A DNA stretch of 46,516 bases, taken from assembly GCA_947475125.1 (NCBI GenBank), contig CANJMX010000002.1, forward strand, positions 1 through 46,516, read 5' to 3'. Below are positions 19,465-36,872 of the stretch, one piece after another. The stretch is from Actinomycetota bacterium. Lineage in GTDB: Bacteria; Actinomycetota; Thermoleophilia; Miltoncostaeales; Miltoncostaeaceae. Numbering within the stretch: position 1 is the first letter of the stretch; each line of letters starts with the position of its first letter. A program made the translations under genes and the position numbers. Below the pieces are notes generated by a model. It saw only the letters and a list, made by a program, of their open reading frames with translations. It had not been told where the DNA came from and made no database searches.

Positions 19465-19538
19465 GCGCCGTTAGCTCAGTTGGTCAGAGCAGGGGACTTT
19501 TAATCCCAAGGTCCTGGGTTCGAATCCCAGACGGCGCA
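19465..19538 (+). tRNA. tRNA-Lys (anticodon TTT)
   Basis: Acceptor GCGCCGT/ACGGCGC, D arm GCTC..GAGC, anticodon loop CTTTTAA, T arm CTGGG TTCGAAT CCCAG. Confidence 0.95.
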
Positions 19539-19540
19539 TT
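19494..19540 (+). repeat. att repeat (tRNA-proximal copy)
   Basis: Identical to 34368-34414; covers anticodon loop to 3' end of tRNA-Lys. Confidence 0.93.
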
Positions 19541-19896
19541 GGGTGGATCCCGCATTAGCAGTGGCATTCCATCTCCGTCTCAAATGGCAGACCGATTGAG
19601 GTGGGACACCAAGGTGGGACACCGGACGGCAATTCCGGCCCTCTTGATCGTCCCTCGGTGATGCCTCGCCCCCACCGGGGGGGGGTAGAGGGGTACACCG
19701 TCGCGGGAAGGGTCGGGGGTCGTCGTAACTGGGTGCCCTTAGGCGCGATTCCGCGGGCGCCCGTAACCGACAGGGGCAGGCCCTGCCTGTCGTGGACTGA
19801 GTGGGTTCGGGCCCTCAATACTCACCGAGGCGTCGACTTCCTGACACACTGGAGTTGAGTCATTTCCGCTCAGCATCCCCCTCAGGGAGCCCCAAG

Positions 19897-21690
19897 ATGA
19901 ACCGCCTGCGCATGCTGTTTGCTGCTCTTGTCATCGCTATCGCCAGCACGCTGGTGCTCGGATCCGCGCTTGCGGCGACGGGGGACACTTGGACCGCGCG
20001 GGCATCGGCGGCGGACAACTGGTGGCAGTCGGTCACATATGGCAATGGCCTGTTCGTCGCCGTCTCCACCAGCGGCAGCGGTAACCGCGTGATGACCAGT
20101 CCCGATGGAATCATCTGGACCGCGCGGACATCGGCGGCTGACAACAGCTGGGCCTCTGTCACATACGGCGGTGGCCTGTTCGTCGCCGTCTCCTGGACCG
20201 GCACGGGTAACCGCGTGATGACCAGTCCTGATGGCATCACCTGGACCGCGCGGGCATCGGCGGCGGACAACGACTGGCGCTCGGTCACATACGGAAGTGG
20301 CCTGTTCGTCGCCGTCTCCTATACCGGCGTGGGTAACCGCGTGATGACCAGTCCCGATGGAATTATCTGGACCGCGCGGACATCGGCGGCTGACAACAGC
20401 TGGACCTCTGTCACATACGGAGGTGGCCTGTTCGTCGCCGTCTCCGCTAGCGGCAGCGGTAACCGCGTGATGACCAGTCCCGATGGGATCACTTGGACCT
20501 TGGGGACATCGGCGGCGGACAACTGGTGGCAGTCGGTCACATACGGCAATGGCCTGTTCGTCACCGTCTCCGCTAGCGGCAGCGGTAACCGCGTGATGAC
20601 CAGTCCTGATGGCATCACCTGGACCGCGCGGGCATCGGCGGCGGACGACGGCTGGTTCTCGCTTACATACGGAAGTGGCCTGTTCGTCGCCGTCTCCTAT
20701 GTTGGGACGGGCAACGGGGTGATGACCAGTCCCGATGGCATCACCTGGACCGCGCGGGTATCCGGGGCGGACAACTCCTGGCGCTCGGTCACATACGGCA
20801 ATGGTCTGTTCGTCGCCGTCTCCTATACCGGCGTGGGTAACCGGGTGATGACCTCCGGCCCGGCCCGACCGAACACCCCGGTAGCGCCGAGCGCAGTTGC
20901 CGGTGACGCATCGGCCACCGTCACGGTGGCGTTGGCATCCAGTGGTGACGTGGTGACCTCGCACACCATCACCGCCTCACCCGGTGGGGCGACCTGCACG
21001 GTGTCAGGCGCATCGGGTTCGTGTCTGGTGTCGGGCCTTGCAAATGGCACCGCCTATACCTTCACCGCCACCGCTACCAATGCCAGAGGCACCTCGGCGG
21101 CCTCCGTGGCATCTGCCGCGATCACCCCAGAAGCGGGCTGTACCGTTCCGCCTGGCTCGGTGGGAATGAGCATCAATGATGGCGATGACTACACCAACAC
21201 CCCGCTGGTGACGCTGTCGGTTATCTGGCCCCTGTGCACAGCAACCGTGAGCGTGTCCAATGACGGTGGGTTTCGCCAAGGGCAGACGGTCTCGCCCGCC
21301 GCGAGAATTCCCTGGCGGCTGGTGTCATCCGGGGCGGAGCGGCTTCCGAAGACTGTGTACCTGCGATTCGGTGACTCAACGACCACCTACACGGACGACA
21401 TCATCCTCGATCAAACGCCACCACTGGTGCTCTCGGTGAGTGCCACCGCCCTTGGCGGCAGCGCGGGCAACAAGATTGCGGCGGGCCAGCGCATCCGCCT
21501 GCGCGTACGCGCCAAGGACAGCGTCTCGGGGGTTGGCTTCATCCAGGCCGCGGCGTCCAAGAGCAGGCCCGGTGCAAAGCGCCCCTATGCATCAGTGCGC
21601 CTGATCCGTGTCGCTGGCAAGCGTGTGTATGTCCGCGTGCAGGATCACGCTGGCAATTGGTCGCGGTGGCGGACGGTGCCGATCAGGTAG
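19897..21690 (+). CDS. Secreted protein: seven 42-aa beta-propeller-like repeats + FN3-like + C-terminal domain
   Basis: Signal peptide MNRLRMLFAALVIAIASTLVLGSALA; 7 copies of DGITWTARASAADNxWxSVTYGxGLFVAVSxxGxGNRVMTSP; C-term SINDGDDYT...LPKTVYLRFG...YTDDIILDQTPP. Confidence 0.88.
   Translation: MNRLRMLFAALVIAIASTLVLGSALAATGDTWTARASAADNWWQSVTYGNGLFVAVSTSGSGNRVMTSPDGIIWTARTSAADNSWASVTYGGGLFVAVSWTGTGNRVMTSPDGITWTARASAADNDWRSVTYGSGLFVAVSYTGVGNRVMTSPDGIIWTARTSAADNSWTSVTYGGGLFVAVSASGSGNRVMTSPDGITWTLGTSAADNWWQSVTYGNGLFVTVSASGSGNRVMTSPDGITWTARASAADDGWFSLTYGSGLFVAVSYVGTGNGVMTSPDGITWTARVSGADNSWRSVTYGNGLFVAVSYTGVGNRVMTSGPARPNTPVAPSAVAGDASATVTVALASSGDVVTSHTITASPGGATCTVSGASGSCLVSGLANGTAYTFTATATNARGTSAASVASAAITPEAGCTVPPGSVGMSINDGDDYTNTPLVTLSVIWPLCTATVSVSNDGGFRQGQTVSPAARIPWRLVSSGAERLPKTVYLRFGDSTTTYTDDIILDQTPPLVLSVSATALGGSAGNKIAAGQRIRLRVRAKDSVSGVGFIQAAASKSRPGAKRPYASVRLIRVAGKRVYVRVQDHAGNWSRWRTVPIR
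19978..20854 (+). repeat. Tandem 126-bp coding repeats (7 units)
   Basis: Consecutive GATGG(A/C)AT(C/T)(A/T)(T/C)CTGGACC starts, e.g. 20104 and 20230, are 126 bp apart. Confidence 0.88.
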
Positions 21691-22021
21691 GCAGACAGTC
21701 CACTGAATAGCGGCGGATTCATATCCAGTGGACAAGGCGAGCAGAACGCCGGACAGGATCTCACCCGACTTCGCAGCAACAACGAGCGCGAGAAGCGCGG
21801 CGGCGACCGGAAGATGCTGCTGAGCCGCGACCCATGCGCATCGCAACCTGATCGACTGCTCGGAGCGCTGACCCTCCGGAGCGCGGGAGGCCGAATTGGG
21901 GCGGGCGGCAGATTGGCTCTTCGTGCAGGATCGTTTCCGTGTTTGAGATCCAACGTCACTCACGCGTCCCGTTCCGCAAGGTATGCCCCACGAGTAATGG
22001 GGTGATCTCCTGACTGGTGCG

Positions 22022-22612
22022 ATGAGCGAGGTCGAAGTCACTTCGCTCGACGACATCCTTGCCACGCTGCCAGCGTTCCGCCCTAAGGACGTGGACTTAC
22101 TTGACTTCCGCGAATATCAGGCATTCATTGCCGAGGACCCGGGTGTGTGCGTGCCGCGTGAACACCAGTGGCGGTATGACCGCATTGGCGTGGCCGCAGG
22201 AGAGCGGGACGGCATTGAGAGCTGGTCCCATGCGTTGGACAATGGCCTCGTCGATTACAAAGACCAGTATTTGCGCAGTCGCGCCTGGCGATACCGCTCG
22301 CACTGTCGCAAGGTCCGAGATGGCGAGAGGTGCTGTAGATGCGGTGCCCAGAGCCGTGCCGCATTCGACAACGGCCGCGTCAAGACCACACGCGTTTCTC
22401 TGCAGGTACACCACCTCACATACGAATCCCGTGGGCACGAGACGCTGGATCAACTGCGCACCTTGTGTAAAGCATGCCATGCCAGCGTCCACAACAAGCC
22501 CAGTCCAGAAGAGTTGCGCGTTAATTCTCCGTGGCCCGATGATGATTGGAAGGACCTGACGGAATACAGCGCCACAGATCTCTGGGGCGGCGAAGTACCA
22601 CCGGAGGGATGA
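22022..22612 (+). CDS. HNH-endonuclease-like protein
   Basis: RDGERCCRCGAQSRAAFDNGRVKTTRVSLQVHHLTYESRGHETLDQLRTLCKACHASVHNKP: CxxC...VHHLTY...L.TLC.aCH. Confidence 0.82.
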   Translation: MSEVEVTSLDDILATLPAFRPKDVDLLDFREYQAFIAEDPGVCVPREHQWRYDRIGVAAGERDGIESWSHALDNGLVDYKDQYLRSRAWRYRSHCRKVRDGERCCRCGAQSRAAFDNGRVKTTRVSLQVHHLTYESRGHETLDQLRTLCKACHASVHNKPSPEELRVNSPWPDDDWKDLTEYSATDLWGGEVPPEG

Positions 22613-22763
22613 ACGCCCGAGGGAAGGCGGGCTGCGTCCAGGGGCGACAAGCGGGATAACCGTATTTGCACGATCCCGACAGACCGGTAGAAGGATGGCG
22701 GCGGTGCAGAACCTTCTACTGGGCCGCGAAGCCGAGCCCCTTCACCGCGCCGGGCGTACCCTT

Positions 22764-23100
22764 ATGAGAACCTCGCCTAGGAGCGCCCCTCAGGCCTCGG
22801 CTCGCCATTCTCTCCATCCTCGCCATTGCCGCCCTTCTCATCGGAGCGGCGCTCGCATCCATCACCTCTGGAGGCGATGCGCAGCCAGCGGACCGCTACC
22901 CCACGGAGCAGGAGGCCCGCGGTGCCTACGAGGCGTGTCGGGCGGCTGGCGCGTCGAATCCCGGCGAGTGCAGTCTGTGGGTCTTGGATGCGACGGACTT
23001 CGCGGTCGGGCGATTCCCGAAGGCCGTCGCCCGCTGGGTGCGGTGGGATCGTGCTGGGCGGCCCGATAGACCGTTGCGTGGGGATGCAGTTGGGGCGTGA
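22764..23100 (+). pseudogene. Possible frameshifted small secreted protein
   Basis: Start ATG 22764 (MRTSPRSAPQASAR) and the hydrophobic-led frame LAILSILAIAALLIGAALASITSGGDAQPADRYPTEQEARGAYEACRAAG... (ends at 23100) are one base out of register; the second frame has no ATG/GTG/TTG start of its own. Confidence 0.4.
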
Positions 23101-23217
23101 GCTGGAACGTGCAAGCCGACCGCTAGCCAGTTGGGACGTCACTCCCAAATGGCGGGCTTCGTACCGTAGCGTCAGTGACCAAACCCCAACCGCTGGCTAC
23201 GAACGAAACGCCTGGCG

Positions 23218-23439
23218 TTAGCCGCGAAGGATCTCGACAGAACCGTCGGAGTGGTCAATACGACAGGGGTACCCTGAGTCATTGGCCGTGCCCTCATAGT
23301 TGCGGCAAAGAGGAGGAGCCGGGTCGTCGAGCTCCACGGCGCCGCCACCGGAGCTGCAGCCGACAAGCAGCGCGCATGCAGACCCCGCGGTAACGATGCC
23401 CGTGAGCAGCACCAGCACTTGCCGTGGAAGGAGCGACAT
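23218..23439 (-). CDS. Small putative lipoprotein (73 aa)
   Basis: MSLLPRQVLVLLTGIVTAGSACALLVGCSSGGG; lipobox-like; SD GGAAGGAG (GAAGGAGCGACATG read on + strand shows the shared leader). Confidence 0.65.
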   Translation of the reverse strand: MSLLPRQVLVLLTGIVTAGSACALLVGCSSGGGAVELDDPAPPLCRNYEGTANDSGYPCRIDHSDGSVEILRG

Positions 23440-23533
23440 GGCGTCAGCGTATAGCCGCTGCGCTGCGCCCCGCCTCGCCCCGCTTCGCGATGCATCACAA
23501 AGCCCGGGTGTAACCCCTCTCCGACCCTGCCCT

Positions 23534-24805
23534 CTAGTAGCCGCCGCCGACCTCGGCCACCAACTCCTCGATGTAGGCGAGGGTCCGGGGTTCGTCGGCC
23601 GCTGCGGTGATGTGGACTGCCTCGGTCCAGCCCTGCCCCTCGGGCAGTTCGTCTCTCTTGCATCGTGTGGCGCCGGATTGCTTCCACCATGCGATGACGG
23701 CTCTCTCAATCACCTCGGCATCTCTGCCGACCCGAATCGGCCACGTGGCGAGCACGTCCCACCCGAGACCCGTCCAGCCGTCGAGACGCTTCGTGGGGTC
23801 CGCGCCAGTGATGCCGACCTTCATGTATGGCCCAGCGTCGTGCCGGATTAGGTAAACCGTGCCGGGTGCTCCTGGGTTGAACCCAAGAGGAGCGCAAACG
23901 GGACAGCCGTGGCCTTGAACGACGCTACTCGGCACAACATCCCACTCGTGCCCACATCCAAGGCAGCGCGCCTCATGCTTCAGGACCGACTCGACCAATG
24001 CGCTGCCCACCCACTCAATGCCGATCTCAGCGGCTCTGCGATCCCACTCCGTACGGGTCAAACGACGCGCGTTGTCGGCACAAGGCTTGCAACCCTGCCC
24101 TTGGGCGACGTTCGCTGGCCATGCTTCCCATTCGTGTCGACATCTCAGGCACCGGGCGGCGTGTCTGTACCTCTTTCTGATCGGCTCGTCGCCCACCCAC
24201 TCAATGCCAGCGGCGGCCGCCCGCAAGTCCCACTCCTCCGGGGCGAGGCGCATTCTCGTGATCGCGCAGACCGGACACCCACGTCCAGCCTTGATGCCCG
24301 CGACGCGGACTTCCCACTCGTACGCGCACTTCAGACACCGGGCGGAGTGTTTCCTCGCGACGTAGATCGGATCGTCGCCCACCCACTCAATGCCTACGGC
24401 AGCAGCACGGCGGTCCCACTCGTCACGGCTTACCCGATAGCCGCGCGCGCACTCCGGACAACCGCTCGGGCAACTTGGCAACCTTGCCCACTGATGTTCG
24501 CATGTCAGGCAGCGAGCAGCACGCTTCTGCATCGAGTCAATTGGCTCGTCGCCCACCCACTCAATGCCGATCTCAGCGGCTCTGCGATCCCACTCCGTAC
24601 GGGTCAAACGACGCGCGTTGTCCGAGCAGGGCCTGCAGCCCATCCCTCCGTAGACATGGTGTGGTGAGCACTCCCACTCGCGCCCACACGTCAAGCAACG
24701 CCCGACATGCCTTTTGGTGGCGTAGATCGGCTCACCCCCAACCCACTCGATGCCAACAGCAGCAGCCCGGCGGTCCCACTCTTCACGGCTTACTCGCGGC
24801 GGCAT
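23534..24805 (-). CDS. Five zinc-ribbon repeats fused to a GIY-YIG-like nuclease domain
   Basis: Five ~62-aa units (EWDRRAAxxGIEWVGdEPI...RCLxCxxxW...GCxxC) followed by GTVYLIRHDAGPYMKVGITGADPTKRLDGWTGLGW. Confidence 0.82.
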   Translation of the reverse strand: MPPRVSREEWDRRAAAVGIEWVGGEPIYATKRHVGRCLTCGREWECSPHHVYGGMGCRPCSDNARRLTRTEWDRRAAEIGIEWVGDEPIDSMQKRAARCLTCEHQWARLPSCPSGCPECARGYRVSRDEWDRRAAAVGIEWVGDDPIYVARKHSARCLKCAYEWEVRVAGIKAGRGCPVCAITRMRLAPEEWDLRAAAAGIEWVGDEPIRKRYRHAARCLRCRHEWEAWPANVAQGQGCKPCADNARRLTRTEWDRRAAEIGIEWVGSALVESVLKHEARCLGCGHEWDVVPSSVVQGHGCPVCAPLGFNPGAPGTVYLIRHDAGPYMKVGITGADPTKRLDGWTGLGWDVLATWPIRVGRDAEVIERAVIAWWKQSGATRCKRDELPEGQGWTEAVHITAAADEPRTLAYIEELVAEVGGGY

Positions 24806-24947
24806 ACCGGGAGCCTAGAGCGGGCAGCGGCAGCCATACGTGCCCAGATTGCCCCTCGAGTCGAAAATTCTCATCGGGACTGCGGGGTCACGGCAACCCA
24901 GAAAGTGGGCCACGAAGGTCTGTCGGTGGACGACCCGCTGGGTCGGT

Positions 24948-25436
24948 TTAGGAGTCTGATTCTATAAGAAAAAAGGTAATCCAAAGGCTGATCAAACCTG
25001 AGCCGACCATCCCAAGGATGGCGGCCAAGAATTCGTTCCAGCCCTGCTGGGCCCACCACGCAACGAGCCCGACATACGAGGCAGCCCAAGCAGCCCCGGA
25101 GAGAACAGCAACGAATATGACCGGGAGAAGCACCCAGAATGTCAGGTCTGTCCAGCCATCCCATCCGCCCGGCCTGCGAGTCCGAGGACTCGCGGCAACA
25201 CGAGCCCAAGGACTCGCGGCACCAACCAGCGCGATGAGCGCAACGACAATCGCTGCCACGTAGAAGCGACTTGACGTATCGGTCGCAAGGGCAAATCCCC
25301 CTGCTCCCGGCTTTCGCACGAAGCAGAGGCCGTCGCGGGTGAAGTCGCAACCCTTCGTTGTCCCATAGATCGCGAGGGCACCCGCGGTAAGGATGCCCGT
25401 GAGCAGGACCACTACTTGCCGTGGAAGGAGCGACAT
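24948..25436 (-). CDS. Small integral membrane protein
   Basis: MSLLPRQVVVLLTGILTAG then several hydrophobic segments; N-terminus nearly identical to the 23218..23439 protein. Confidence 0.65.
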   Translation of the reverse strand: MSLLPRQVVVLLTGILTAGALAIYGTTKGCDFTRDGLCFVRKPGAGGFALATDTSSRFYVAAIVVALIALVGAASPWARVAASPRTRRPGGWDGWTDLTFWVLLPVIFVAVLSGAAWAASYVGLVAWWAQQGWNEFLAAILGMVGSGLISLWITFFLIESDS

Positions 25437-25590
25437 GGAGTCAGTATATGGCGCACTTTGCGTGTCCACGAGAAGCGCGCTCATCTGGCATGGACCCCGC
25501 TCCTTGCAAGCGCTGCATAGCCATGTCTGCGTTCGCATGAATCGTGCTTCGAGGGCGTGAAGTGGTGTCGGTAATACCCCCCTGAGCAGG

Positions 25591-25596
25591 TATAAT
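25591..25596 (+). promoter_or_regulatory. Candidate -10 element for the 25634 gene
   Basis: Exact TATAAT 38 bp before the GTG start, flanked by direct repeats TAATACCCCCCTGA / TAATACCCCCTGA. Confidence 0.4.
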
Positions 25597-25633
25597 TCCA
25601 GCATCCTCCCTGCCCCTAATACCCCCTGACATC

Positions 25634-26134
25634 GTGGGCCTCTCCAAGAACGCACCCGTCTTGGTCACCTCCCGAGAGCGAGAGGTCGAATCGCTTCGCC
25701 TCCGCGCTGAGGGGTGCACCTACGACGAAATCGGCCGGCGTCTGGGAATCGCCAAACAGAGCGCCTGGGAGGCCGTGGACCGTGCCATGACACGCGTCGC
25801 CGACGAGATGCGAGAGAGGGTCGCCGAGGTCCGCGTGCTCGAGGCAGCGCGCCTTGACGCTGCCGCATCGGCGATCTGGTCGAAGGTGCTTGAGGGCGAT
25901 CTGCGCGCGCACGAGACGTGGCTGCGCAACCGGACGAGGTACTCGTCCCTCTTCGGCCTTGACGCGCGACAGGAGCCTGTTGCGCTCGCTGACAACCGGA
26001 TGGTGAACATCGTGCTCTCGCCGCCCTGGGAGCGCGAAGCCCGGGGCACCGAGCCGCCGATTCTCGACGAGGCGGCTGACGAGGCGCTGGTGGTGCCCGA
26101 TCTGGAATCGCTTCCGGAGCCGCCATTCGGTTGA
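25634..26134 (+). CDS. HTH protein, possibly phage terminase small-subunit-like
   Basis: SREREVESLRLRAEGCTYDEIGRRLGIAKQSAWEAVDRAMTRV (sigma-region-4/LuxR-like HTH), then helical region and acidic tail. Confidence 0.65.
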   Translation: MGLSKNAPVLVTSREREVESLRLRAEGCTYDEIGRRLGIAKQSAWEAVDRAMTRVADEMRERVAEVRVLEAARLDAAASAIWSKVLEGDLRAHETWLRNRTRYSSLFGLDARQEPVALADNRMVNIVLSPPWEREARGTEPPILDEAADEALVVPDLESLPEPPFG

Positions 26135-26220
26135 GGGTGCTGGGCGGACCTTCCACCTGTCCTTCTCCTGTTAGCGTCACATGGCCTATCTGGGCACAGG
26201 GGGGGACGAGGAGGGTCGGG

Positions 26221-26835
26221 ATGTCCGGTCAAGAAGCGCGGCGCGGCGCGCAAAAACTCTCCATCGGGGCAGTTGCGCTCGTCCTCGCCATTGCGTGCCT
26301 AGGGGTGCTCGGTTGCGGCGGACCGGATCAGGCCACCATCGATCAGGCGTTTGCAGCGCAGGCAACTAGGGCCAAGGCAGACCTAGAGCGGGCAGTCGCC
26401 GCAGCAACCGCCAAGGGCGGCACCGCGTTGGAACGGGCCGTCTCGGACCAACGGGCAACCGACGGCAAGGCTGCGGCCGAGTTCAGCGCCCTCACCATCC
26501 AAGTGTTCTCAGAGCTAGATGGAACAAACTTCGAACTAACGAACGCGGCAATGTTCGACCGCGGCCTCCCCGCTGCTGCTTCGGTGCTACGAGACCGTAT
26601 TGCAGTGATTCGCGCGTCGCTCCAGCAAATCACGGCCATTCAACTAGAGGGCAACCGATTTGAACTGCAGCGGAGCGCCCTCGTGGAGGGCGTCCGCAGC
26701 TGCCTTCACCTGATCGATAGCGCCGCGGCCGACATGGAGAGGGGCGATTCGGGCGCAGGACCAAAGGCAGCGTCACCGATCATTGAATGCTGGGCGGCGG
26801 CGAGAGACCGTGTTGTACGACTCGGACTCCAGTAG
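26221..26835 (+). CDS. Putative lipoprotein
   Basis: MSGQEARRGAQKLSIGAVALVLAIACLGVLGCGGPDQAT (lipobox LGCG), helical remainder. Confidence 0.65.
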   Translation: MSGQEARRGAQKLSIGAVALVLAIACLGVLGCGGPDQATIDQAFAAQATRAKADLERAVAAATAKGGTALERAVSDQRATDGKAAAEFSALTIQVFSELDGTNFELTNAAMFDRGLPAAASVLRDRIAVIRASLQQITAIQLEGNRFELQRSALVEGVRSCLHLIDSAAADMERGDSGAGPKAASPIIECWAAARDRVVRLGLQ

Positions 26836-26884
26836 CGTCATTCATGAATTCGCCCACATCCAGCATGTTCTTGAGGTGCGCGCT

Positions 26885-27649
26885 ATGACAAGCACACCGC
26901 ACGACGGCAGCGGAGGGTCTCCGGAGCAGGCGCTCTTCGCCGACTGTGTCGACCTCTACGAGCGCACCGCCGCAGAGGTCACATACGAATGGCCGAGCGG
27001 CCGAATCGGTCCGTACTGGGCGCGCCGCTTCATGAGGAAGATTAAGACGGACCACGAGGAGACAACTCCCAGCCGAATCGTTGAGAGCGTCTCAGAAATG
27101 GTGTGCAAGCCTGCTCCCCAGGGTTTCGGCATCATCGAGCAGGCGGGACGGTTGGATCTCTCGCTTGAGCTACTTGTGCTGGACGAGTCCACGCCTTATC
27201 ACCACCTGTTTGCTCCCGACGTTGTTGACGCTGCAGCCGACCGCATGGACGTCTACTTGGCGCGCCAGCACACCGTGGTAGCCGACGGGCCCACTCTGAG
27301 GTCGCTGCAGGAACGCGTGCGCGCTTTCCGCGACGAGCGCGACTGGGCGCAGTTCCATACACCTAAGGATCTCGCTGCCGCGATTGCAATTGAGGCAGGG
27401 GAACTGCAGGAACTGTTCCTCTGGCAGGACAGGGATGCCCAGCGAGCAACGCTGGAGTCCCGAAGCGAGGCGGTACGACACGAGATTGCCGACGTCCTGA
27501 TTCTTACCCTGGCCTTCGCAGAGATCACTGGTATCGATCTTGGCGCTGCCGTCGAGGAGAAGCTGCGCGTGAACGCCACGAAGTACCCCGTGGCGCACGC
27601 GAAGGGCCTCTCCCTCAAGTACTCCGACCTGCCGGGTGACCGCGGCTGA
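26885..27649 (+). CDS. Uncharacterised N-terminal domain fused to MazG-like nucleotide pyrophosphohydrolase
   Basis: C-term LRSLQERVRAFRDERDWAQFHTPKDLAAAIAIEAGELQELFLWQD...VRHEIADVLILTLAFAEITGIDLGAAVEEKLRVNATKYPV, MazG/RS21-C6-type EExxE...ExxD pattern. Confidence 0.85.
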   Translation: MTSTPHDGSGGSPEQALFADCVDLYERTAAEVTYEWPSGRIGPYWARRFMRKIKTDHEETTPSRIVESVSEMVCKPAPQGFGIIEQAGRLDLSLELLVLDESTPYHHLFAPDVVDAAADRMDVYLARQHTVVADGPTLRSLQERVRAFRDERDWAQFHTPKDLAAAIAIEAGELQELFLWQDRDAQRATLESRSEAVRHEIADVLILTLAFAEITGIDLGAAVEEKLRVNATKYPVAHAKGLSLKYSDLPGDRG

Positions 27650-28608
27650 TGCCACTCGTCATCCTGCAACCGAGCGGGAACAAAGGTGCCCGAGAACACT
27701 ATCGGGACACCATCCAGACCCCCGTGAGTCTCGTCGACTACGCCTCTTCACTCGGCAGCCAGAAGTCGACACTTGACGCGCTCTTCCCAACGGGCACTGC
27801 TCCAATGTGGGGAGTGACCCCGGGAGGGAGAAACCCGCAGTTATGGGGTCGGTGCAGTGCAGGGGATCTCGTCCTCTTCGCGGCGAACAAGCGCATCTTC
27901 GGCAGCGGCACCGTAAGAACCACTTTTCACAATGAGCCACTAGCCCGGATTCTCTGGGGCGAGGACGCAGAGGGGCGAACTTGGGAGTACATGTACGCGC
28001 TGGATGACATCCGCCCCTTAGACGTCTCCTATGAGGAGTTCAATCGCTGGGTCGGCTACAACGAGCGCGCCGTCATTCAGGACTTCCGGGTACTGAGTCA
28101 AGAAAAGAGCGACTTGGTGTTCGCAGCGCTCGACGTCGACGTGGAGATTTACGGCACGCCAGTCTCACCGGGCGACTTTCGGGCCGCAGCGACGCGCATA
28201 CCCGACGAGCTCGACAGAGAGCGGACCACGCAGCAGCGGACCGAAAGCCGGTACATACGAAACCACCTCTTTCCGAGTCCAACTGCAACGTGTGACCTTT
28301 GCGGCGAGGTGTTCCCGTGTGCCTTCCTCGTTGGGGCTCACATCAAGAAGCGGGCCGCCTGCAGTCACGCCGAAAAGATTGACATCCCGAATGTCGTTAT
28401 GGCTGCGTGCGTGTTCGGTTGCGACGCGCTCTTCGAAAAGGGTTACGTCACCGTCGCCGACAACTGGTCGATTCGAGTTTCGGGGTCGACTGGTTCCGCG
28501 GCCCTTGATAAGCGCCTTGCTCAACTTGCTGGCCGCTCGTTTCCGCACCGCGATGCCCTCCGGCTCCCCTATTTCCTGTGGCATCGAAACAACACGTTTC
28601 GGGGATGA
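27649..28608 (+). CDS. PUA/EVE-like domain + HNH endonuclease (candidate modification-dependent nuclease)
   Basis: N-term WGRCSAGDLVLFAANKRIFGSGTVRTTFHNEPLARILWGEDAEGRTWEYMYALDDIR (PUA-like); C-term CDLCGEVFPCAFLVGAHIKKRAACSHAEKIDIPNVVMAACVFGCDALFEKGYVTV (HNH). Confidence 0.75.
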   Translation: MPLVILQPSGNKGAREHYRDTIQTPVSLVDYASSLGSQKSTLDALFPTGTAPMWGVTPGGRNPQLWGRCSAGDLVLFAANKRIFGSGTVRTTFHNEPLARILWGEDAEGRTWEYMYALDDIRPLDVSYEEFNRWVGYNERAVIQDFRVLSQEKSDLVFAALDVDVEIYGTPVSPGDFRAAATRIPDELDRERTTQQRTESRYIRNHLFPSPTATCDLCGEVFPCAFLVGAHIKKRAACSHAEKIDIPNVVMAACVFGCDALFEKGYVTVADNWSIRVSGSTGSAALDKRLAQLAGRSFPHRDALRLPYFLWHRNNTFRG

Positions 28609-28831
28609 GACTGCGCACCGGCTGCTCTGGCCGCAGGCCTGACAGGAGGCAGGGGCCTGGCGGCTAGCGCGTGGCCGAAACGCGGTTGACCCGCCCCTCA
28701 CGACGGGTCCTCCTGCCGTATGCCACGGCATACAGGAACCCGCATGGGTAAACGAATCTCGGGCATGCGCCGTCCGAGGATCATGCAACCATTGTTAAGA
28801 CGTTCATGCTTCTCAAGCAAAGGTTCGCGAC

Positions 28832-29017
28832 GTGACCAAATACCTAACGACCACCCAAGCGGCTCGAGCCATCGGCGTGAGTCGCGTGACAGTGCATCGC
28901 TGGGTCGTGGCAGGCGCGATCCCGAGCACTCGCACTGCACTTGGTGCCTTGCTCGCCCCAGAAGTAGTCGAGCGAGCGAGGTGCGAATGGATGGCAAGAG
29001 GGGCAGTCCGCCCCTAA
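28832..29017 (+). CDS. Excisionase/MerR-like HTH protein (61 aa)
   Basis: MTKYLTTTQAARAIGVSRVTVHRWVVAGAIPSTRTALGALLAPEVVE. Confidence 0.75.
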   Translation: MTKYLTTTQAARAIGVSRVTVHRWVVAGAIPSTRTALGALLAPEVVERARCEWMARGAVRP

Positions 29018-29498
29018 AAACCGACCGCTCCGTTACAGGCGGAGCGAACGAAAGCAGTCAATTGATGTATGACAGAAATATTGACGGGGACGGTGCGGTT
29101 AACGCGCCACACGCGTCGCCTTATGGCCTCAAGGAGGCCTCAGGCAGAGCTCTGGAATGGCAGCGCGACCGCCGGGCAATGGGCGACACGAATCAAACGG
29201 GTTCGGGCCGACCAAATGACCACCAAGCGCTGGTGGCTCACGATGCGGGGGATGCCGCAGCATTCTGTTGGGCCGCGCGCGCAGCAGAGTCACGCACTCC
29301 GAGTCAGGCCCCAAGCCGACGCGTCCGCCGCATCGGACCAATTCGTCAGGGCATCACCCGCCGTGCGTCACGCAGCGCGACAACAGTCCGCCATGCGGCA
29401 AGCACCACCAAGCGGTCAAGCACCGGCAGCAGCGATGACAGCGGGGGCGATTTACCCGAATCCCAAGTAGTCCCCGCTGCAGTCATGGGGGTGGCCTC

Positions 29499-30281
29499 AT
29501 GAGTAGCGCGAATCAGATGAACAGCCGCCCTGACCAGGAGCGGCTCTCTCTCCTCCCCAGATCACCAGAGACCGACAGGCAGCCGCTGGTCCCGCCCGAC
29601 GCTTCGAGCCTCACTCCAGAGTTCGTAGCTCGCCTGCGCCCTTTCGACAGCGGTGGCTCGCCCATTCGCTCATGGCTTATCGGTGACGCAGTCGACACCG
29701 GCAGCGTTCCGGATGGCTCGATCGTGTGCGTCATCGTCGCCACCGAGGAGGTACTCAGCCGAGAAACCGGTGCGCCCATCGGTCTCCGTCTCAAGGCATC
29801 AGACACAACCGGGGAGGCTGAGATCAATATCCGATATCAGGATACGCCACGCCCCTCGATCTGCCCTGAGGAGGTTTGGCAACGAATCCTCGCCATAGAA
29901 CAAAAGGAGCGCTCGGCCTTACGCCCCGGCACCCTGATCGGCGCATGTGTATTCAAGCCGCACACGAGGGCGTCCCATGGTCGGGTCCGGGACGGACGGG
30001 TAATCCTGTTCTCCCCCTATGTGTTCGACCCGAACGAAGTGGTCCGCCGGCCTTCCAGCGACGACATCGAAGGGCGGCTTGGGTGGGATGCGCAGAAGTT
30101 CGTCGAACGCAACGGCCCCTGCTGCATGCAGGACGTGATTGATGGCGTGACAGGCAAGGCGGCAATGATCCGCACAGAGGTCAGAGAAGCGGTCCGCAAC
30201 GGTGACTTCCTACAAGAGTCCGGCCCGCGGGGAGCCAAGATGCTCTCTTTCGTGAAACGAGTGCAGGTGGTCATTCCATGA
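29499..30281 (+). CDS. Hypothetical protein, possible OB-like domain + C-terminal winged-helix-like region
   Basis: Long ORF with coding-like composition; beta-rich middle (SIVCVIVATEEVLSRETGAPIGLRLKASDTTGEAEINIRY); C-term FVERNGPCCMQDVIDGVTGKAAMIRTEVREAVRNGDFLQE. Confidence 0.6.
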   Translation: MSSANQMNSRPDQERLSLLPRSPETDRQPLVPPDASSLTPEFVARLRPFDSGGSPIRSWLIGDAVDTGSVPDGSIVCVIVATEEVLSRETGAPIGLRLKASDTTGEAEINIRYQDTPRPSICPEEVWQRILAIEQKERSALRPGTLIGACVFKPHTRASHGRVRDGRVILFSPYVFDPNEVVRRPSSDDIEGRLGWDAQKFVERNGPCCMQDVIDGVTGKAAMIRTEVREAVRNGDFLQESGPRGAKMLSFVKRVQVVIP

Positions 30282-30345
30282 CGCCGGGACGTGGTTGGAC
30301 CAAGTCAGCCAGGGGGGCATTGGTAGTCCTCATGACACGCGACCC

Positions 30346-30401
30346 CGACCCCGTCCTCCGTCCCCACCCCTATAAGGGGGTGGGGACGGAGGACGGGGTC
30401 G
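30346..30401. repeat. 25-bp perfect-stem hairpin with 6-nt loop
   Basis: CGACCCCGTCCTCCGTCCCCACCCC-TATAAG-GGGGTGGGGACGGAGGACGGGGTCG. Confidence 0.95.
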
Positions 30402-30468
30402 CTTGGGAGTCGCTCCGCGCTTTGTTCATACTCAGCGTCGCCACGGACTGGACGCGGGGTGGTGTCGC

Positions 30469-30768
30469 GTGAGTATCTCGCCACCTGCATCTCTCAAGAC
30501 TTGCGTCGCCCCAAGCATCCTTCACGAGATCCAGCAGTGGGTGACAGCGGTGGCTGCCGAGGAGATACATAAATGCGCCGAGCAGACGGTGTTGTCGCCT
30601 TACATGACACCCGATCAGGCAGCGCAATGGCTGGGATCGAACCGTCGCCGTATCGATGACCTCTGCTCCCAAGGAAGGCTGACTCGGTGCCATGACGGCC
30701 GACGGCTACTGCTCCTGAGAGCCGAGGTCGAGGCGCTGGTGACTCGGGGGGAGAACCGTGAGTGGTGA
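30469..30768 (+). CDS. Excisionase-type HTH protein
   Basis: LSPYMTPDQAAQWLGSNRRRIDDLCSQGRLTRCHDGRRLLLLRAEVEALVTR. Confidence 0.7.
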   Translation: MSISPPASLKTCVAPSILHEIQQWVTAVAAEEIHKCAEQTVLSPYMTPDQAAQWLGSNRRRIDDLCSQGRLTRCHDGRRLLLLRAEVEALVTRGENREW

Positions 30769-30941
30769 TCGCCGCGTCCCACCAATGCCCCACGCCCCAC
30801 ATCTGGCCAGTCAGTACAGGGTGTCTGCGATGAACACGGGACTCGCAATCCCGCTGAGGTCTCCGCTACGGTCCAAGAACATAAGTGGCCGGGCGAGTGC
30901 GCGAACACCCCCCGGCCGTGGCAACGGAAAGGAAACTTCCG

Positions 30942-32102
30942 ATGCGTGACAAGCCTAATGGCGATCACCGCGACTACCGCCCGACCCCAATGCCGGGCGT
31001 GTACGAGCGTGGACCAGTTGGCCAGCCCTACTGGTCGGCCCGCTACACCGACGCTGATGGCAAGCGGGCCAACGAGCGGTTCGACACCTACGAAGATGCG
31101 TGCGCGTTCAAGGCGCGCATGAAGAACGAGGTGGAACGCCGCACGCACCGCCGCCCCGAGCACATCACGTTCAAGGCATATGCCGAGGCGTGGCCGGATC
31201 GGTACCGGGGGCGCACGACAACCGGGCTGCGGGACGCCTCCCGCGAGCGGTACCGCACGCAGATCAACGTGGCGGCCACCTTCCTCGCTGGGCGCAGCGG
31301 CAGACGCCCATTGGCGGCAGTGGCTCCCGAGCACATCGAGGGCTACGTAGACCACCTGTACGCGACGGGGCGCACGCCCACGACGGTCAGGCGCTACATG
31401 GTCCCGCTGAAAGCGATGCTGTCGCAGGCGGTCAGAGAGGGGAGGATCAAGTCAAACCCTGCGACTGGCGTTCCGCTGCTCCCGTCGGACATGACGCTGC
31501 TACCGGAAACCACAGATGACGAGGCCGACATCAAGGCGCTGTCATCGGAGCAGATGGCGGCGCTGATCGAAGCCGTACCTGCCACCCAGCGGCTACTCGT
31601 CGCCACGATCGCCCGCACAGGCCTCCGCATCAGTGAAGCGCTGGGGCTTCGCTGGTGCGACGTGGACCGGCAGGAGGGCGTGGTGCGGGTAAGACAGTCG
31701 GTGGTCGGGGGCAGGATCGGCAAGCCCAAGACGGCGCGCTCGCGTCGATCGGTGCCGGTGGCCGACGACCTGATGCGCGACCTGCTCGCCCGACGCCTTG
31801 CGTCTCGCCACTCCCGTGACGAGGACTTGGTATTCGGGTCGCGGTCGGGAAAGCCGGTGGACACGTCGTCCTGCTACCGGTGGCTACGACCCGCTGCCGC
31901 AGCGGTCGGAGCGCCCTGGGCCGGGTTCCACGCCCTGCGCCACGGCGCTGCGAGCGCATGGTTCCGAGCGGGCTACCCGGTCACGGTGGTGTCGAAACTG
32001 CTGGGCCACTCAACAGCCACGTTCACGCTGTCGGTCTACATCCACGCGCTCGCAGAAGACATGCCAGACGGTGAAGCGCTGCGGAAGGCGGTGGGCCTCT
32101 AG
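30942..32102 (+). CDS. int: Tyrosine recombinase / phage-type integrase
   Basis: SAM-like core-binding domain; catalytic IARTGLRISEALGLRWCDVD, FHALRHGAASAWFRAGYPVTVVSKLLGHSTATFTLSVYIH (R...HxLR...H...Y). Confidence 0.95.
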   Translation: MRDKPNGDHRDYRPTPMPGVYERGPVGQPYWSARYTDADGKRANERFDTYEDACAFKARMKNEVERRTHRRPEHITFKAYAEAWPDRYRGRTTTGLRDASRERYRTQINVAATFLAGRSGRRPLAAVAPEHIEGYVDHLYATGRTPTTVRRYMVPLKAMLSQAVREGRIKSNPATGVPLLPSDMTLLPETTDDEADIKALSSEQMAALIEAVPATQRLLVATIARTGLRISEALGLRWCDVDRQEGVVRVRQSVVGGRIGKPKTARSRRSVPVADDLMRDLLARRLASRHSRDEDLVFGSRSGKPVDTSSCYRWLRPAAAAVGAPWAGFHALRHGAASAWFRAGYPVTVVSKLLGHSTATFTLSVYIHALAEDMPDGEALRKAVGL

Positions 32103-32250
32103 ACCTAAGGCATCGGGTGGGACGTCCCACCCCGTAATCGCGTGGTGCATGGAGAGGGGTGGTCTGTCAGGTCGCCCCTTTTCATGCGCGTTCCCTCGAA
32201 GTCAGCCCTAGCCCGAGACAGACTCAATAAGCTTCGGTCGTGGTGCTTGA

Positions 32251-34176
32251 TCAGGGCAGGGCCACCTTCTTCCATGAAGACCAGTTACCCGCGCGATCCT
32301 GCACACGGACGAACGCTTGCTTGGTGGTCAGTTTGGCGGAGGTGACCCGCTTGTACCGCGCTACCGTTCCGCCGCCCCTGCGCGATCCCGATATCTGCAC
32401 CTTCCCGACCCCTGAGACCTTGTCCGTGGCCGCCACCACGAAGCGATACCGCCGCCCGGTTGACATCTCGTTGGCACCGCTCGCCGTCGCCGCGGTCACC
32501 GACGTAATGACGGGAGAGATTTCGTCAAGGATGATGTCGTCCGTGTAGTTCGCTCCGGCTCCGTTGAATCGGAGATACACGGTTTTCGGAAGTCGCTCGG
32601 GGCCTGAACTGTCAAGAGTCCACGGAACCCCCTCAGCGATCGCCGAACTTCTGGCCGACCGGAAGCCACCATCATTCGATATCAGGAGGGTTTGGGAGCA
32701 GGCGGGCCACACCGCGGAAAGGGTGACCGACGTTGAGTCCGTGAACCGCGCTCCGTCGTTGATCGACACCCCCACTGGGCCCGCTGGCGGCACGCGGCAC
32801 TCCTGGGCACCTGGGTTTGGGGCACCTGGGTTTGGGGCACCTGTGTTTGGGGCACCTGAGCCGTCGCCGCCGGGAGTGCTGCCGCCGGGAGTGCCGGCAT
32901 CTGGTCTGTCATCGGTCACCCAACGTGCGACGCGCATCGTCGAGTCGCTGCGGGCGAAGCCGAAGACCTCGCCTTCGCCAAAGGCAAAGAGCCGACTGTC
33001 CTGGGTGTATCCGACTGGGCTGGGCCAGCCGGTGGGCGCGCCGACATCCTCTCCGGTGGCTGCGTTAAGGAACTTATCTCCTGCCCAGACAACCGAGGCA
33101 AGCACTGTCACCAGTGGCACTCCATCGCGTGGCTCCTGGTTCTCGAATGTCACGGTCGCGGACCAGATGCTCGCGCCCGTGGATCGGTTGTAAGCCACAA
33201 CTCGACTCGGAAAGAGTCCGCAGTAGCCGTCCATGCACGGATAGGCGACGAAGACAGCGCCCTCACTGACTGTGACGCTCCGAGGGGTTCGATAGCCCCC
33301 TTCGGTCGCCGTCCACAGGACGCCCCCATCGGGGCCGATGGCCTGAACCGTGATCGGTTGCCCCGCCACCGAACGCGCCTTGGCGACGTAGGTCGTGTCG
33401 CCGAACATGGCAAACGCCGGATACCAGTACCAAAGGCTCGGATCTAGTCGCGCGTCGCTGGTAGCGCTGAGCCGCCAGGCAATTGAGCCCGTCGTCGAAT
33501 CGCGGCTGGTAACTCCGCCGCCAGCCAGTGCAACGACTTGCGATGGCGAAACGCGAAGCGCGCTCTGCGAACCCTCACTATTAGTGCGGAGCACCGTGCC
33601 GGTTGCCTGATCGAGCGTCGCTGTGTCGTAGAACCCCGCCGCATAGACGGCGCCATCGCGAGCAGTAAAGGGCGCAGCGACGGAGAACGGGGGATCCAAC
33701 GGATTCGTCGGCAGACCGGACTGACTCCACAGCTCAGCGCCGGTGGCGGTGTCGAAGGCAAGGATGACTCCGCGCCCACCTGCAAACACGCGGGACCCGT
33801 CGACGGCAGGGCACATGCGCCCGTTGTCTGGATAATTCGTACGTGCCGGAATGTCATCCGACTGCCAGAGGAGCGAACCGGTCGAGCCGTCGAACGCGAA
33901 GAGCCGCTGGTTCGGCAGGGAGGTTGTGGTCTTGCCGATTGCGAAGATGCGCCCGCCGCTCGCAGCAACACACTGGAACGGGTCAGCGATGAACTCGGTA
34001 CCGCTCGACCAGCTGACCTTCAGTTTCAAGCCCGGGAACGCGGCGGCGGCGAAACGGCCTTCCGCATTACCTCCCGCCATCGGCCATTCTGTTGCTGCCC
34101 ATGCCGACGAGTACACGCTAAACCCAACGCTTGCTAGTGCAACCGCCGCAAAGAGAGTTCTCGAATGCATTCGCAT
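32251..34176 (-). CDS. Secreted PQQ-like beta-propeller protein with shared C-terminal domain
   Basis: Signal peptide; ASGGRIFAIGKTTTSLPNQRLFAFDGSTGSLLWQSDD, VILAFDTATGAELWSQSG; C-term VSINDGARFTDS...ERLPKTVYLRFNG...YTDDIILDE...VRVQDRAGNWSSWKKV. Confidence 0.82.
   Translation of the reverse strand: MRMHSRTLFAAVALASVGFSVYSSAWAATEWPMAGGNAEGRFAAAAFPGLKLKVSWSSGTEFIADPFQCVAASGGRIFAIGKTTTSLPNQRLFAFDGSTGSLLWQSDDIPARTNYPDNGRMCPAVDGSRVFAGGRGVILAFDTATGAELWSQSGLPTNPLDPPFSVAAPFTARDGAVYAAGFYDTATLDQATGTVLRTNSEGSQSALRVSPSQVVALAGGGVTSRDSTTGSIAWRLSATSDARLDPSLWYWYPAFAMFGDTTYVAKARSVAGQPITVQAIGPDGGVLWTATEGGYRTPRSVTVSEGAVFVAYPCMDGYCGLFPSRVVAYNRSTGASIWSATVTFENQEPRDGVPLVTVLASVVWAGDKFLNAATGEDVGAPTGWPSPVGYTQDSRLFAFGEGEVFGFARSDSTMRVARWVTDDRPDAGTPGGSTPGGDGSGAPNTGAPNPGAPNPGAQECRVPPAGPVGVSINDGARFTDSTSVTLSAVWPACSQTLLISNDGGFRSARSSAIAEGVPWTLDSSGPERLPKTVYLRFNGAGANYTDDIILDEISPVITSVTAATASGANEMSTGRRYRFVVAATDKVSGVGKVQISGSRRGGGTVARYKRVTSAKLTTKQAFVRVQDRAGNWSSWKKVALP
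32806..32850. repeat. 15-bp tandem repeat (3 units, partial 4th) in the linker of the 32251..34176 gene
   Basis: GGCACCTGGGTTTGG x2, GGCACCTGTGTTTGG; encodes GAPNxGAPNPGAPNPGA. Confidence 0.9.
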
Positions 34177-34367
34177 ATAGGGGACGGTAGTCCGCAAACA
34201 GGCTAGGTCACACCCTCCTCATTCCTCGCGCACTGAAGCCGTCCGGCTATAGGTGGGACGGAAGGTGGGACAGACAGGCCCGTAAGCCAGACCAGCATGT
34301 GGACGGGGCGCACCACGAAAGCCCCGTCCACATGCGTTCTCACCCGTGCTCACCCGTAGCGCAAGAT

Positions 34368-34414
34368 GGACTTTTAATCCCAAGGTCCTGGGTTCGAATC
34401 CCAGACGGCGCATT
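34368..34414 (+). repeat. att repeat (distal copy, tRNA-Lys 3' remnant)
   Basis: Identical 47 bp; flanking sequence does not complete a tRNA. Confidence 0.93.
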
Positions 34415-34700
34415 CGCGAGGCGCGATCGCACCGGGTAGTGGGTATCGCCGGTTCCTGAACGCGGGGAGGGGGCGGCACCGGCACTCATGCTGCTCCCAG
34501 GGGGCGAGTTCTGCGGGGCGCGGCACCTCCATTCAGGTAGTGCCCCGTCCCATTAATTGGTTTGGTGGGACCAGCCCAAGAAGTTGGATTTGGGGACGAA
34601 ATTATCCCAGAAACATCCAGTACCGACGGGTGTCGGTGGAGCGCGGGAGAGTCGCTCCTCACGGTCGCGGCCATTCATTTGACCATAAGGAGAAATCACC

Positions 34701-35264
34701 ATGAAGGGATCCACAAAGGGCAGCGCACGTTGGCCACGTGCCGCCGCTGGGGTTGCAGTGCTTGCCTTGGCCGTAGGAGCGGTACCCGCAATGGCGGTGC
34801 CCGCCACGGGCAGTACAACGGCCACCGTCACTGTGAACAGCATTCTGTCGCTCACGGCACCGGCATCGATCTCATTCAGCAACATCTCGGTGGGCGGCAC
34901 GAGCCCGGCATCAGCCACGCCTGTCGCCGTCACAAGCAACGCCGCCAAGGGCTACCAGTTGAGCGTTGGCCGAACCGCGTTCACCAACGCCGGTGGTGGC
35001 TCGGTCGCCGATAATGTGGACATCCCGCTCACCGTGGCCAACCCGAGTGGCGTCGGTGTTGCACCGGGCAGCACTACTCCCGCATCCAGTGATGTCGCGA
35101 TCCTCACCGCGGCCAGCTCGTTGCTTGGCGCTGGGAACGCCGGACACGTGACCGGCAGCGCTGGCGACACGTGGAACCTGGGGCTGGTTCTCGGACCAGT
35201 GCCGTTCACCCAGGATGGGCTGCGCTCATCCACGGTGACCTTCACTGCCGTCACCACCCCCTAG
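34701..35264 (+). CDS. Secreted WxL-like beta-sandwich protein
   Basis: Signal peptide then TATVTVNSILSLTAPASISFSNISVGG...VTSNAAKGYQLSVGRTAFTN...GPVPFTQDGLRSSTVTFTAVTTP; homologous to the C-terminus of the next gene. Confidence 0.7.
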   Translation: MKGSTKGSARWPRAAAGVAVLALAVGAVPAMAVPATGSTTATVTVNSILSLTAPASISFSNISVGGTSPASATPVAVTSNAAKGYQLSVGRTAFTNAGGGSVADNVDIPLTVANPSGVGVAPGSTTPASSDVAILTAASSLLGAGNAGHVTGSAGDTWNLGLVLGPVPFTQDGLRSSTVTFTAVTTP

Positions 35265-35269
35265 GTGCC

Positions 35270-36841
35270 ATGCGGGCCCTATCCAGATCCCGAAGTCGGA
35301 TAGGGCCCACTTTGGCCGTCCTCGTGATGGTTTCACTCACCGGGCTCACGAACATCGCAACCGGTATTCCGCTCGCGCCGACGTTCACGCCCACGGCGCA
35401 GTCGCCAATTACCGCCGGAACGCGGCCGGTCGCGATTGTCGCTGCGCTGTTCACCGCTGACGCGTTCCCGGATATCGCGATCGCTGATGAAGGAAACGGG
35501 ACCTCGGCCAGTAGCGTCGCCACACGTGCGGGCAGTGCCACCGGCACGTTCTCAACAACCGTCGGCACCGCCGGCACCGGAATCGGGCCGTCGGCCATGG
35601 TGACCGGGTACTTCAACACAGGAGTTGCCCGCGACCTGATTGTGGCCAACCGCGGCAGCAACACGATCACCAGCCTCTTCGGCGATGGCACCGGTGCATT
35701 CCCCACATCGCGTTCAACCTCGGTCGGCAACTCGCCATCAGCGCTGGCATCGGGGGATCTGAACGGCGACGCGCTCACCGATCTGGTGGTGGCGAATGGG
35801 GGCGATGCCAACATCTCGGTGCTCCGGCAGCGGGGCACGTCCGGAAGCTTCACAACCTTCAACTGCTCCAGCTGCGCTGGCACGCTGGCCACGGGAACCA
35901 GCCCCTCCGCAGTGGCGCTGGCCGACATCAATCACGATGGACGGCTCGACCTTCTTGCAACTGGTGCATCAAATGCGCTCACGTATCGACTTGGCGCCGG
36001 CGATGGCTCATTCGGCACCAGCACCTCCCAGCCCGTGGGTGCCAGCCCAATGGCCATCGGCGTCGGCGACCTGAACGGCGACACGTATGCCGATGTGATG
36101 GTGGCCAACCAGGGAGTTGGCACGGTGTCGGTCTTCCTTGGGTCAGCTGCTGGGACCCTCACCGCCCAGCCCACCCTCACTGGGTCAGCGGCGAGTGCGC
36201 CCGATGCCCTCGCGGTGGGCGACCTCAATGGCGACAGCATTCCCGATCTCGCGGTGGCCTACAGCGGGAGCGCGAGCGTCGGCATCTTCCCGGGAAATGG
36301 CAATGGCACCTTCGCTGCAGCCACCACCCTTTCCGCGGGTACGGCCCCCTCGTCAATCGCGGAGGCCGACCTGAATGGCGATGGCCGCTCCGATCTTGTG
36401 GTCACCAACAAGACGGCGAACTCGGCCACGGTATTCCTCAACACCACTGCCACCAGCACAACCATCACGGTGCCCGCATCGCTCGACTTCGGAAGTGCCG
36501 CCGTCGGCAACACAATCGCACCGATCAGCCAGACGGTGACCGTTGCCAGCAACGCCCCCACCGGATATCAGCTCTCTATTTCACGGTCGGCCTTCAGCGG
36601 CGGGGACATCCCCCAGTCGCTGTCGCTCACCACCGTCCCGACTGGCGGCACGCGCACGCTCGCCGTCGGCACGACCTCGCTGCTGGCAGACAGCGCCATC
36701 GGCATTGGTCAGCGAGCAGGTTCCGTCACGCCGGCCGGCGGAGATGCCTGGGGCATCGCGACAGGCCTTGGCCCCATTCCATTTGGGATTGAGGGCACAC
36801 GCACATCAACGATCACATACACCGTTGCCACGCTGCCATAG
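35270..36841 (+). CDS. Secreted FG-GAP/VCBS-repeat protein with WxL-like C-terminal domain
   Basis: Repeated SGDLNGDALTDLVVANGGDANISVL-type FG-GAP units; C-term SNAPTGYQLSISRSAFSG...GLGPIPFGIEGTRTSTITYTVATLP. Confidence 0.85.
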   Translation: MRALSRSRSRIGPTLAVLVMVSLTGLTNIATGIPLAPTFTPTAQSPITAGTRPVAIVAALFTADAFPDIAIADEGNGTSASSVATRAGSATGTFSTTVGTAGTGIGPSAMVTGYFNTGVARDLIVANRGSNTITSLFGDGTGAFPTSRSTSVGNSPSALASGDLNGDALTDLVVANGGDANISVLRQRGTSGSFTTFNCSSCAGTLATGTSPSAVALADINHDGRLDLLATGASNALTYRLGAGDGSFGTSTSQPVGASPMAIGVGDLNGDTYADVMVANQGVGTVSVFLGSAAGTLTAQPTLTGSAASAPDALAVGDLNGDSIPDLAVAYSGSASVGIFPGNGNGTFAAATTLSAGTAPSSIAEADLNGDGRSDLVVTNKTANSATVFLNTTATSTTITVPASLDFGSAAVGNTIAPISQTVTVASNAPTGYQLSISRSAFSGGDIPQSLSLTTVPTGGTRTLAVGTTSLLADSAIGIGQRAGSVTPAGGDAWGIATGLGPIPFGIEGTRTSTITYTVATLP

Positions 36842-36872
36842 GCCGCGTGGATCCATCACAGGGAGATTCCAC

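Follow-up and report, generated by a model that had tools for sequence, protein, structure and literature searches.

Descriptions of type IV restriction enzymes of the VcaM4I class usually present them as lone genes, harmless to their hosts since host DNA does not carry the mark that they recognize. VcaM4I joins an EVE domain, which reads 5-methylcytosine or 5-hydroxymethylcytosine (5mC/5hmC), to a C-terminal HNH domain; its catalysis needs H224, D250 and D254, and a single open reading frame (ORF) is typical of the nucleoside triphosphate-independent enzymes of its class (PMC7897488). The N-terminal domain of McrB from Thermococcus gammatolerans is a YTH domain that reads N6-methyladenine (6mA; PMC7897488). 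In the nucleotide pool, hydrolysis of dCTP and C5-modified dCTP is established for the human and mouse dCTP pyrophosphatases (PMC4491611, PMC7162842), and the Km of human DCTPP1 is lower with 5-methyl-dCTP than with dCTP (PMC4491611). Here we describe a pair of genes in which a DCTPP1-type MazG pyrophosphohydrolase (gene 1) directly precedes a predicted modification-dependent HNH nuclease (gene 2). They were found in a stretch of 46,516 nucleotides (hereafter the window; contig CANJMX010000002.1, positions 1 to 46,516, assembly GCA_947475125.1) from an actinomycetotal bacterium of the family Miltoncostaeaceae. On balance, we favour the view that the two genes make up a type IV restriction module whose MazG most likely keeps modified deoxynucleoside triphosphates (dNTPs) out of host DNA.

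Both domains and the reader–HNH architecture are known already; for the conserved arrangement of the two genes as a module, no description was found. A literature search that excluded subscription papers returned no report of a MazG and reader–HNH pair, and no system catalogued in PADLOC fits both genes, gene 1 having no match and gene 2 matching generic HNH restriction models at its C terminus only. Two partial parallels are available. In Streptococcus, MutT homologues adjoin homologues of the type IV restriction enzyme SauUSI, according to the legend of Fig. 9 in PMC7641849; as far as that legend goes, the arrangement likewise places a nucleotide-sanitizing enzyme beside a modification-dependent restriction enzyme but differs in its Nudix fold and in its nuclease. 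DefensePredictor lists MazG as a predicted anti-phage domain, stated there to be unvalidated (Fig. 6F in PMC13092281), and the likeness to our locus lies in MazG as an anti-phage domain.

A predicted modification reader joined to an HNH nuclease

The two genes form one tightly arranged operon (Table 1). The original prediction, made from the sequence alone, had given their ORFs, coordinates and TGATG overlap, all of which the sequence bears out. We rejected the possibility of chance ORFs, as full-length homologues were found at 28–47% identity, with 15 invariant positions in a 60-sequence alignment.

We gathered 119 relatives of gene 2 (80 from genomes and 39 from viral contigs) and aligned 60 sequences for structure prediction. 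When the resulting AlphaFold model (mean pLDDT 92.8, pTM 0.62) was compared with the Protein Data Bank (PDB) using Foldseek, the top match was VcaM4I (6yex) over the full length (E 7e-10), followed by the N-terminal domain of T. gammatolerans McrB (6p0f; E 5e-7, TM 0.67 by target length). Further matches of the reader included many YTH domains and some ASCH, EVE and other PUA-type structures. The low global TM score against VcaM4I (0.35) comes from the position of the two domains relative to each other, which either differs from that in VcaM4I or is not certain in the model. At the sequence level, phrog_14240, a PHROG family with no assigned function, matched gene 2 over its full length (2.7e-53), its C terminus matched PADLOC HNH models (2.6e-8) and NCBIfam gave nothing significant. 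Membership of the EVE family (PF01878) was considered and rejected, since the Pfam model gave no match, and gene 2 is filed only as carrying a PUA-superfamily reader.

Gene 2 and VcaM4I are alike in having a PUA-superfamily reader, a linker and a C-terminal HNH domain, in their pattern of catalytic residues and in their similar length. H231, D259 and E263 of gene 2 align with VcaM4I H224, D250 and D254 and are each conserved in 60/60 sequences, and N248, at the position of the non-catalytic N241 of VcaM4I, is kept in 47/60. The two proteins differ in their readers, which share no significant sequence similarity (the sequence match is confined to the C terminus of gene 2), in four additional invariant cysteines of the gene 2 HNH domain (Cys 215, 218, 254 and 258), which probably bind zinc, and in the conserved MazG partner of gene 2. 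Within the reader, P8, W54, F77, L102 and W103 are present in 59–60 of the 60 sequences, while W112 and Y116 are always aromatic, making all seven candidate residues of a base pocket.

The best single-domain fold match of the reader is the Thermococcus McrB domain, to which it also has a marginal profile match (E 0.07) with aligned DTI, WG and GD.VLF motifs; the McrB reader, however, is fused to a GTP-driven AAA motor working with McrC, whereas that of gene 2 sits on an HNH domain and has no motor. The same reader as in gene 2 forms the N terminus of a McrB-like AAA ATPase (AAA_5) in an Archaeoglobus provirus, where the next gene is annotated as PD-(D/E)XK, and precedes the Mrr_cat nuclease domain of a restriction enzyme on a Halobacterium plasmid. 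The PUA-like N-terminal domain that had been predicted for gene 2 is therefore confirmed by fold at the level of the superfamily, and the predicted HNH nuclease by the PADLOC and VcaM4I matches together with the invariant catalytic residues. As established by computation on this model, gene 2 is predicted to be a type IV-like nuclease that carries a PUA-superfamily reader and whose active site is intact. It would be expected to cleave modified DNA and, by analogy with the readers of known specificity, might recognize 5mC/5hmC or 6mA. We also observed a stand-alone gene for the reader domain just upstream of the reader–HNH gene at three loci with no MazG nearby (L131, at 5022–5636; L132; L137).

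A DCTPP1-type MazG domain with a local N-terminal addition

Residues 166–249 of gene 1 matched the Pfam family MazG-like PF12643 (3e-15; score 56.6 bits, cut-off 27), and the protein aligned with the mouse and human dCTP pyrophosphatases of the PDB (1e-19). By fold, it matched the structures of mouse dCTPase bound to 5-Me-dCMP and of RS21-C6 bound to dm5CTP. In comparison with DCTPP1/RS21-C6 (2a3q, 6sqw, 2oig; PF12643), gene 1 keeps all the metal ligands (E170, E173, E200 and D203) and both base-stacking tryptophans (W154 and W180); these residues align with mouse E63, E66, E95, D98, W47 and W73, respectively, and are invariant in 34/34 sequences. Unlike those enzymes, it shares a prokaryotic operon with a nuclease gene and is fused to an N-terminal domain. 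The MazG-type assignment of the original prediction can thus be narrowed to the dCTP/5-methyl-dCTP pyrophosphatase group. Computation establishes gene 1 as a putative pyrophosphohydrolase whose predicted active site is intact, and its substrates, judged by the mammalian enzymes, may be modified dNTPs.

Residues ~1–133 of gene 1 had no Pfam match. A profile of this domain found relatives in 13/399 genomes of the class, which in congeners are small separate genes, and searches of viral contigs found no viral relatives; the structural model was all-helical, with pLDDT of about 42–76, and gave no usable fold match. We regard the domain as a local addition because the MazG partners elsewhere lack it. 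An unassigned domain of ~150 residues had been proposed here, and it does appear to be a separate domain without Pfam match, but it spans ~133 residues and is absent from the partner genes of other loci. In two genomes of the class, a domain of this type lies behind a PLD-like region (L146, 1471–2517 on the reverse strand; L147, 1036–1794); the region has the HxK...GSGN pattern typical of PLD nucleases, which was recognized by eye, and no Pfam match. This fusion suggests that the N-terminal domain may be a conflict-related adaptor.

Co-conservation of MazG and the reader–HNH nuclease

Co-conservation of the two genes had been set beforehand as a test of the original prediction. We scanned related loci with a MazG profile, the sample consisting of best matches rather than a census, and obtained 59 non-redundant loci with a full-length reader–HNH gene. 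A MazG gene immediately preceded the reader–HNH gene, in the same orientation, in 35/59, spanning at least six phyla as well as prophages, as against 0/20 relatives whose similarity is limited to the HNH domain (L080–L099), and the expected co-conservation was thereby found. By group, MazG was present in 14/30 loci of Actinobacteria, 3/4 of Bacillota, 2/3 of Bacteroidota, 1/1 of Cyanobacteria, 1/1 of Patescibacteria, 4/5 of Proteobacteria and Campylobacterota, 1/1 unassigned, 9/13 on viral contigs and 0/1 of Acidobacteria. The gap between the two genes was mostly −32 to +33 bp, many pairs overlapping, and in most loci MazG was a stand-alone domain with no regulatory part. In a mirror-tree comparison without adjustment for host phylogeny, distances among the MazG proteins and among the nucleases were correlated (r 0.71, against a maximum of 0.25 over 2000 permutations).

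Other neighbours of DCTPP1-type MazG

When loci were instead retrieved from viral contigs with the MazG alignment, a gene with the reader of gene 2 lay directly downstream in 49/80. At some loci the reader was kept and the nuclease swapped, either for an HNH_2 type (L155, L209) or for an HNH domain like that of PADLOC type IV enzymes (L169, L200); at others MazG was paired with different readers plus HNH (L177, L182, L220) or with MrcB_N plus HNH (L184). In viral sequences, MazG also overlapped or adjoined a DNA methylase gene (L225, confirmed by Pfam as N6_N4_Mtase) and genes for methylase-like proteins (L206, L211, L224, L231), and on annotated plasmids it stood beside a DUF3578 protein or near a Sau3AI-family enzyme. 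A phylum-wide sample contained DCTPP1-type MazG in 25/299 genomes, three of these genes, gene 1 of the window included, being located beside HNH enzymes. The repeated link of MazG to readers of DNA modification and to a DNA methylase indicates that modified nucleotides may be the substrate, and points to an association of this MazG type that is stable with DNA modification, across differing nucleases. In a second recurring pairing, MazG directly preceded a GIY-YIG plus Schlafen-group-3 (DUF2075-type) helicase (L234, L238, L241 and L254; Pfam on L234 only).

Proposed mechanism and alternatives

Drawing on the folds of the domains, the conservation of catalytic residues, the operon arrangement, the wide co-conservation of the pair and its mobile context, all obtained by computation, we propose that the YTH/EVE-like domain of gene 2 would flip out and read a modified base of incoming DNA, upon which the HNH domain would cut that DNA. 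Modified dNTPs may arise from degraded modified phage DNA or from phage synthesis; the DCTPP1-like gene 1 would destroy them, keeping modified nucleotides out of new host DNA that gene 2 would otherwise cut. We infer this self-protective role of gene 1, and prefer it because it explains both the occurrence of MazG with a nuclease intolerant of modification in its own genome and the occurrence of MazG beside a phage methylase. Whether a whole class of type IV modules encodes its own safety device, with a DCTPP1-type enzyme clearing modified dNTPs recycled from phage DNA, is a more tentative matter, to which we would give somewhat less than an even chance.

Several observations weigh against the proposed module. 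Gene 2 has no Pfam match above cut-off, neither to EVE (PF01878) nor to YTH. No MazG was nearby in 22/59 reader–HNH loci; the combination of MazG with a modified-DNA nuclease that had been predicted is thus frequent, but not obligatory. Among 18 genomes with a reader–HNH gene and no MazG nearby, 7 had no such MazG at all and 11 had one. We tried the idea that a MazG elsewhere in the genome serves the unpaired nucleases and set it aside as weak, since many of these genomes are Streptomyces-like, a group in which MazG is common on the chromosome. Since the nuclease can be found by itself, in some cases with no such MazG anywhere in the genome, MazG would be helpful rather than essential. In the phylum-wide sample, moreover, many DCTPP1-type MazG were lone chromosomal genes, and some stood beside GIY-YIG/Schlafen-type helicases, so that the enzyme may be a general accessory.

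The original prediction saw a candidate defence module acting on modified nucleotides at the level of both pool and DNA, and this much is supported by the co-conservation of the pair, the PUA-superfamily reader and the dCTP/5-methyl-dCTP-type MazG. Two attacks on the phage are not required by these results, however, and protection of the host fits the context better. In such a double attack MazG would destroy the modified dNTPs of the phage (for example, 5-hydroxymethyl-dCTP) and the nuclease would cut the modified DNA that remained, so that the phage would lose either its precursors or its DNA. The nearness of MazG to dCTP/5-methyl-dCTP pyrophosphatases and the tight operon would suit this, but phage DNA with less modification is a poorer target for the nuclease, which makes the activities partly opposed, and a MazG beside a phage DNA methylase makes no sense as an anti-phage enzyme; we consider the double attack unlikely. 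Co-conservation within one operon would suit an abortive effector that drains dCTP once the nuclease has detected phage DNA, like the dCTP deaminase and dGTPase defences. Given that this type of enzyme is also encoded singly, as an ordinary gene of the chromosome, and that MazG is mostly a stand-alone domain with no regulatory part, we find this distinctly improbable.

We hold out equally little prospect for a role through protein contact, in which MazG would regulate or inhibit the nuclease and its catalysis would be secondary. The correlated divergence of the two proteins speaks for it, yet host phylogeny is not accounted for in that correlation, MazG retains every one of its catalytic residues, and nucleases of quite different kinds have this same type of MazG beside them. 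Finally, the loci that lack MazG would be explained if mobile elements carried the two side by side as accessory genes that have nothing to do with each other. The constant order and strand of the pair, with an overlap or a gap of less than ~35 bp usually, in at least six phyla, and the presence of DCTPP1-type MazG in only 25 of the 299 genomes sampled in the phylum, make the absence of any functional link very hard to credit.

If salvage brings modified nucleotides into host DNA, type IV enzymes would carry a little-noticed risk of self-damage, and a widely conserved nucleotide cleaner beside such nucleases would, if our preferred reading of host self-protection is true, be the matching solution; the question is directly testable. 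The principle of a safety device would then extend to other reader–nuclease types found beside DCTPP1-type MazG. The combination of MazG, reader and nuclease may also offer a genomic handle in the search for more modification-dependent nucleases, enzymes of use as epigenomic tools.

An integrative element in tRNA-Lys

The gene pair is carried by an element of 14.9 kb (19539–34412) inserted in a tRNA-Lys gene. The integrative island of the original prediction is borne out by a tyrosine integrase, by exact 45-bp direct repeats and by a relative whose site is empty: congener G003 (L262) is 97.8% identical to the window up to base 19538, the last of the tRNA-Lys gene, where the similarity breaks. 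The element encodes two HTH_17 proteins (Pfam), and a Pfam scan that covered the main ORFs of the island, though not all of the small ones, detected no methylase. No full-length relative of gene 2 was found in 100 related genomes, beyond a weak partial match, which is consistent with horizontal gain. On plasmids, relatives lie close to further restriction genes, namely an HNH enzyme and a BglII/BstYI-type enzyme, a DUF262 protein, a restriction endonuclease or a DNA adenine methylase.

Table 1. Features of the gene pair and its integrative element, in window coordinates.
Feature	Position	Strand	Description or basis
Gene 1	26885..27649	+	ORF, 254 aa; ATG 26885, stop TGA 27647-27649; unassigned N-terminal domain and DCTPP1-type MazG pyrophosphohydrolase
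Gene 1 N-terminal domain, residues 1-133	26885..27283	+	Profile search; model all-helical, low confidence
Gene 1 MazG/DCTPP1-type domain, residues 135-252	27287..27640	+	Pfam, PDB alignment, fold match
GAGGTG, plausible ribosome-binding site	26873..26878	+	Sequence, inferred; 6 nt 5' of gene 1 ATG
TGATG stop-start overlap of genes 1 and 2	27647..27651	+	Sequence; one base shared
Gene 2	27649..28608	+	ORF, 319 aa; predicted PUA-superfamily reader and HNH nuclease
Gene 2 YTH/EVE-like reader, residues ~1-165	27649..28143	+	Foldseek matches; archaeal McrB-like and Mrr-type sequence matches
Gene 2 HNH nuclease domain, residues ~197-317	28237..28599	+	Alignment to VcaM4I; invariant catalytic residues
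tRNA-Lys	19465-19538		
attL, last 45 bp of tRNA-Lys	19494..19538	+	Exact direct repeat
attR, exact 45-bp copy of tRNA-Lys 3' end	34368..34412	+	Exact direct repeat
Tyrosine integrase	30885..32102	+	PF00589, 7e-25
HTH_17 excisionase-like small protein	28832..29017	+	PF12728, 3e-7

To the right of attR, 34413–37760 is also missing from G003, and a second insertion or a deletion may lie there. Within the island, a gene on the reverse strand (23534–24805) encodes repeated DUF4379 treble-clef zinc fingers, seen in the DNA as 186/174-bp repeats, with a GIY-YIG-like C-terminal end, and is a possible conflict gene. It is flanked by a 72-bp repeat with 89% identity between its copies (23384–23455 and 25381–25452), where the neighbouring reading frames resemble paralogues. 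Another small HNH protein (PF01844) is encoded at 22022–22612. Near the ends of the island, two genes for long proteins (19801–21690 and 32251–34197) share a C-terminal domain with 49% identity over 188 aa; the former holds a 126-bp tandem repeat array, and a tandem 15-bp repeat with GGGCACCTG occurs at 32805–32858.
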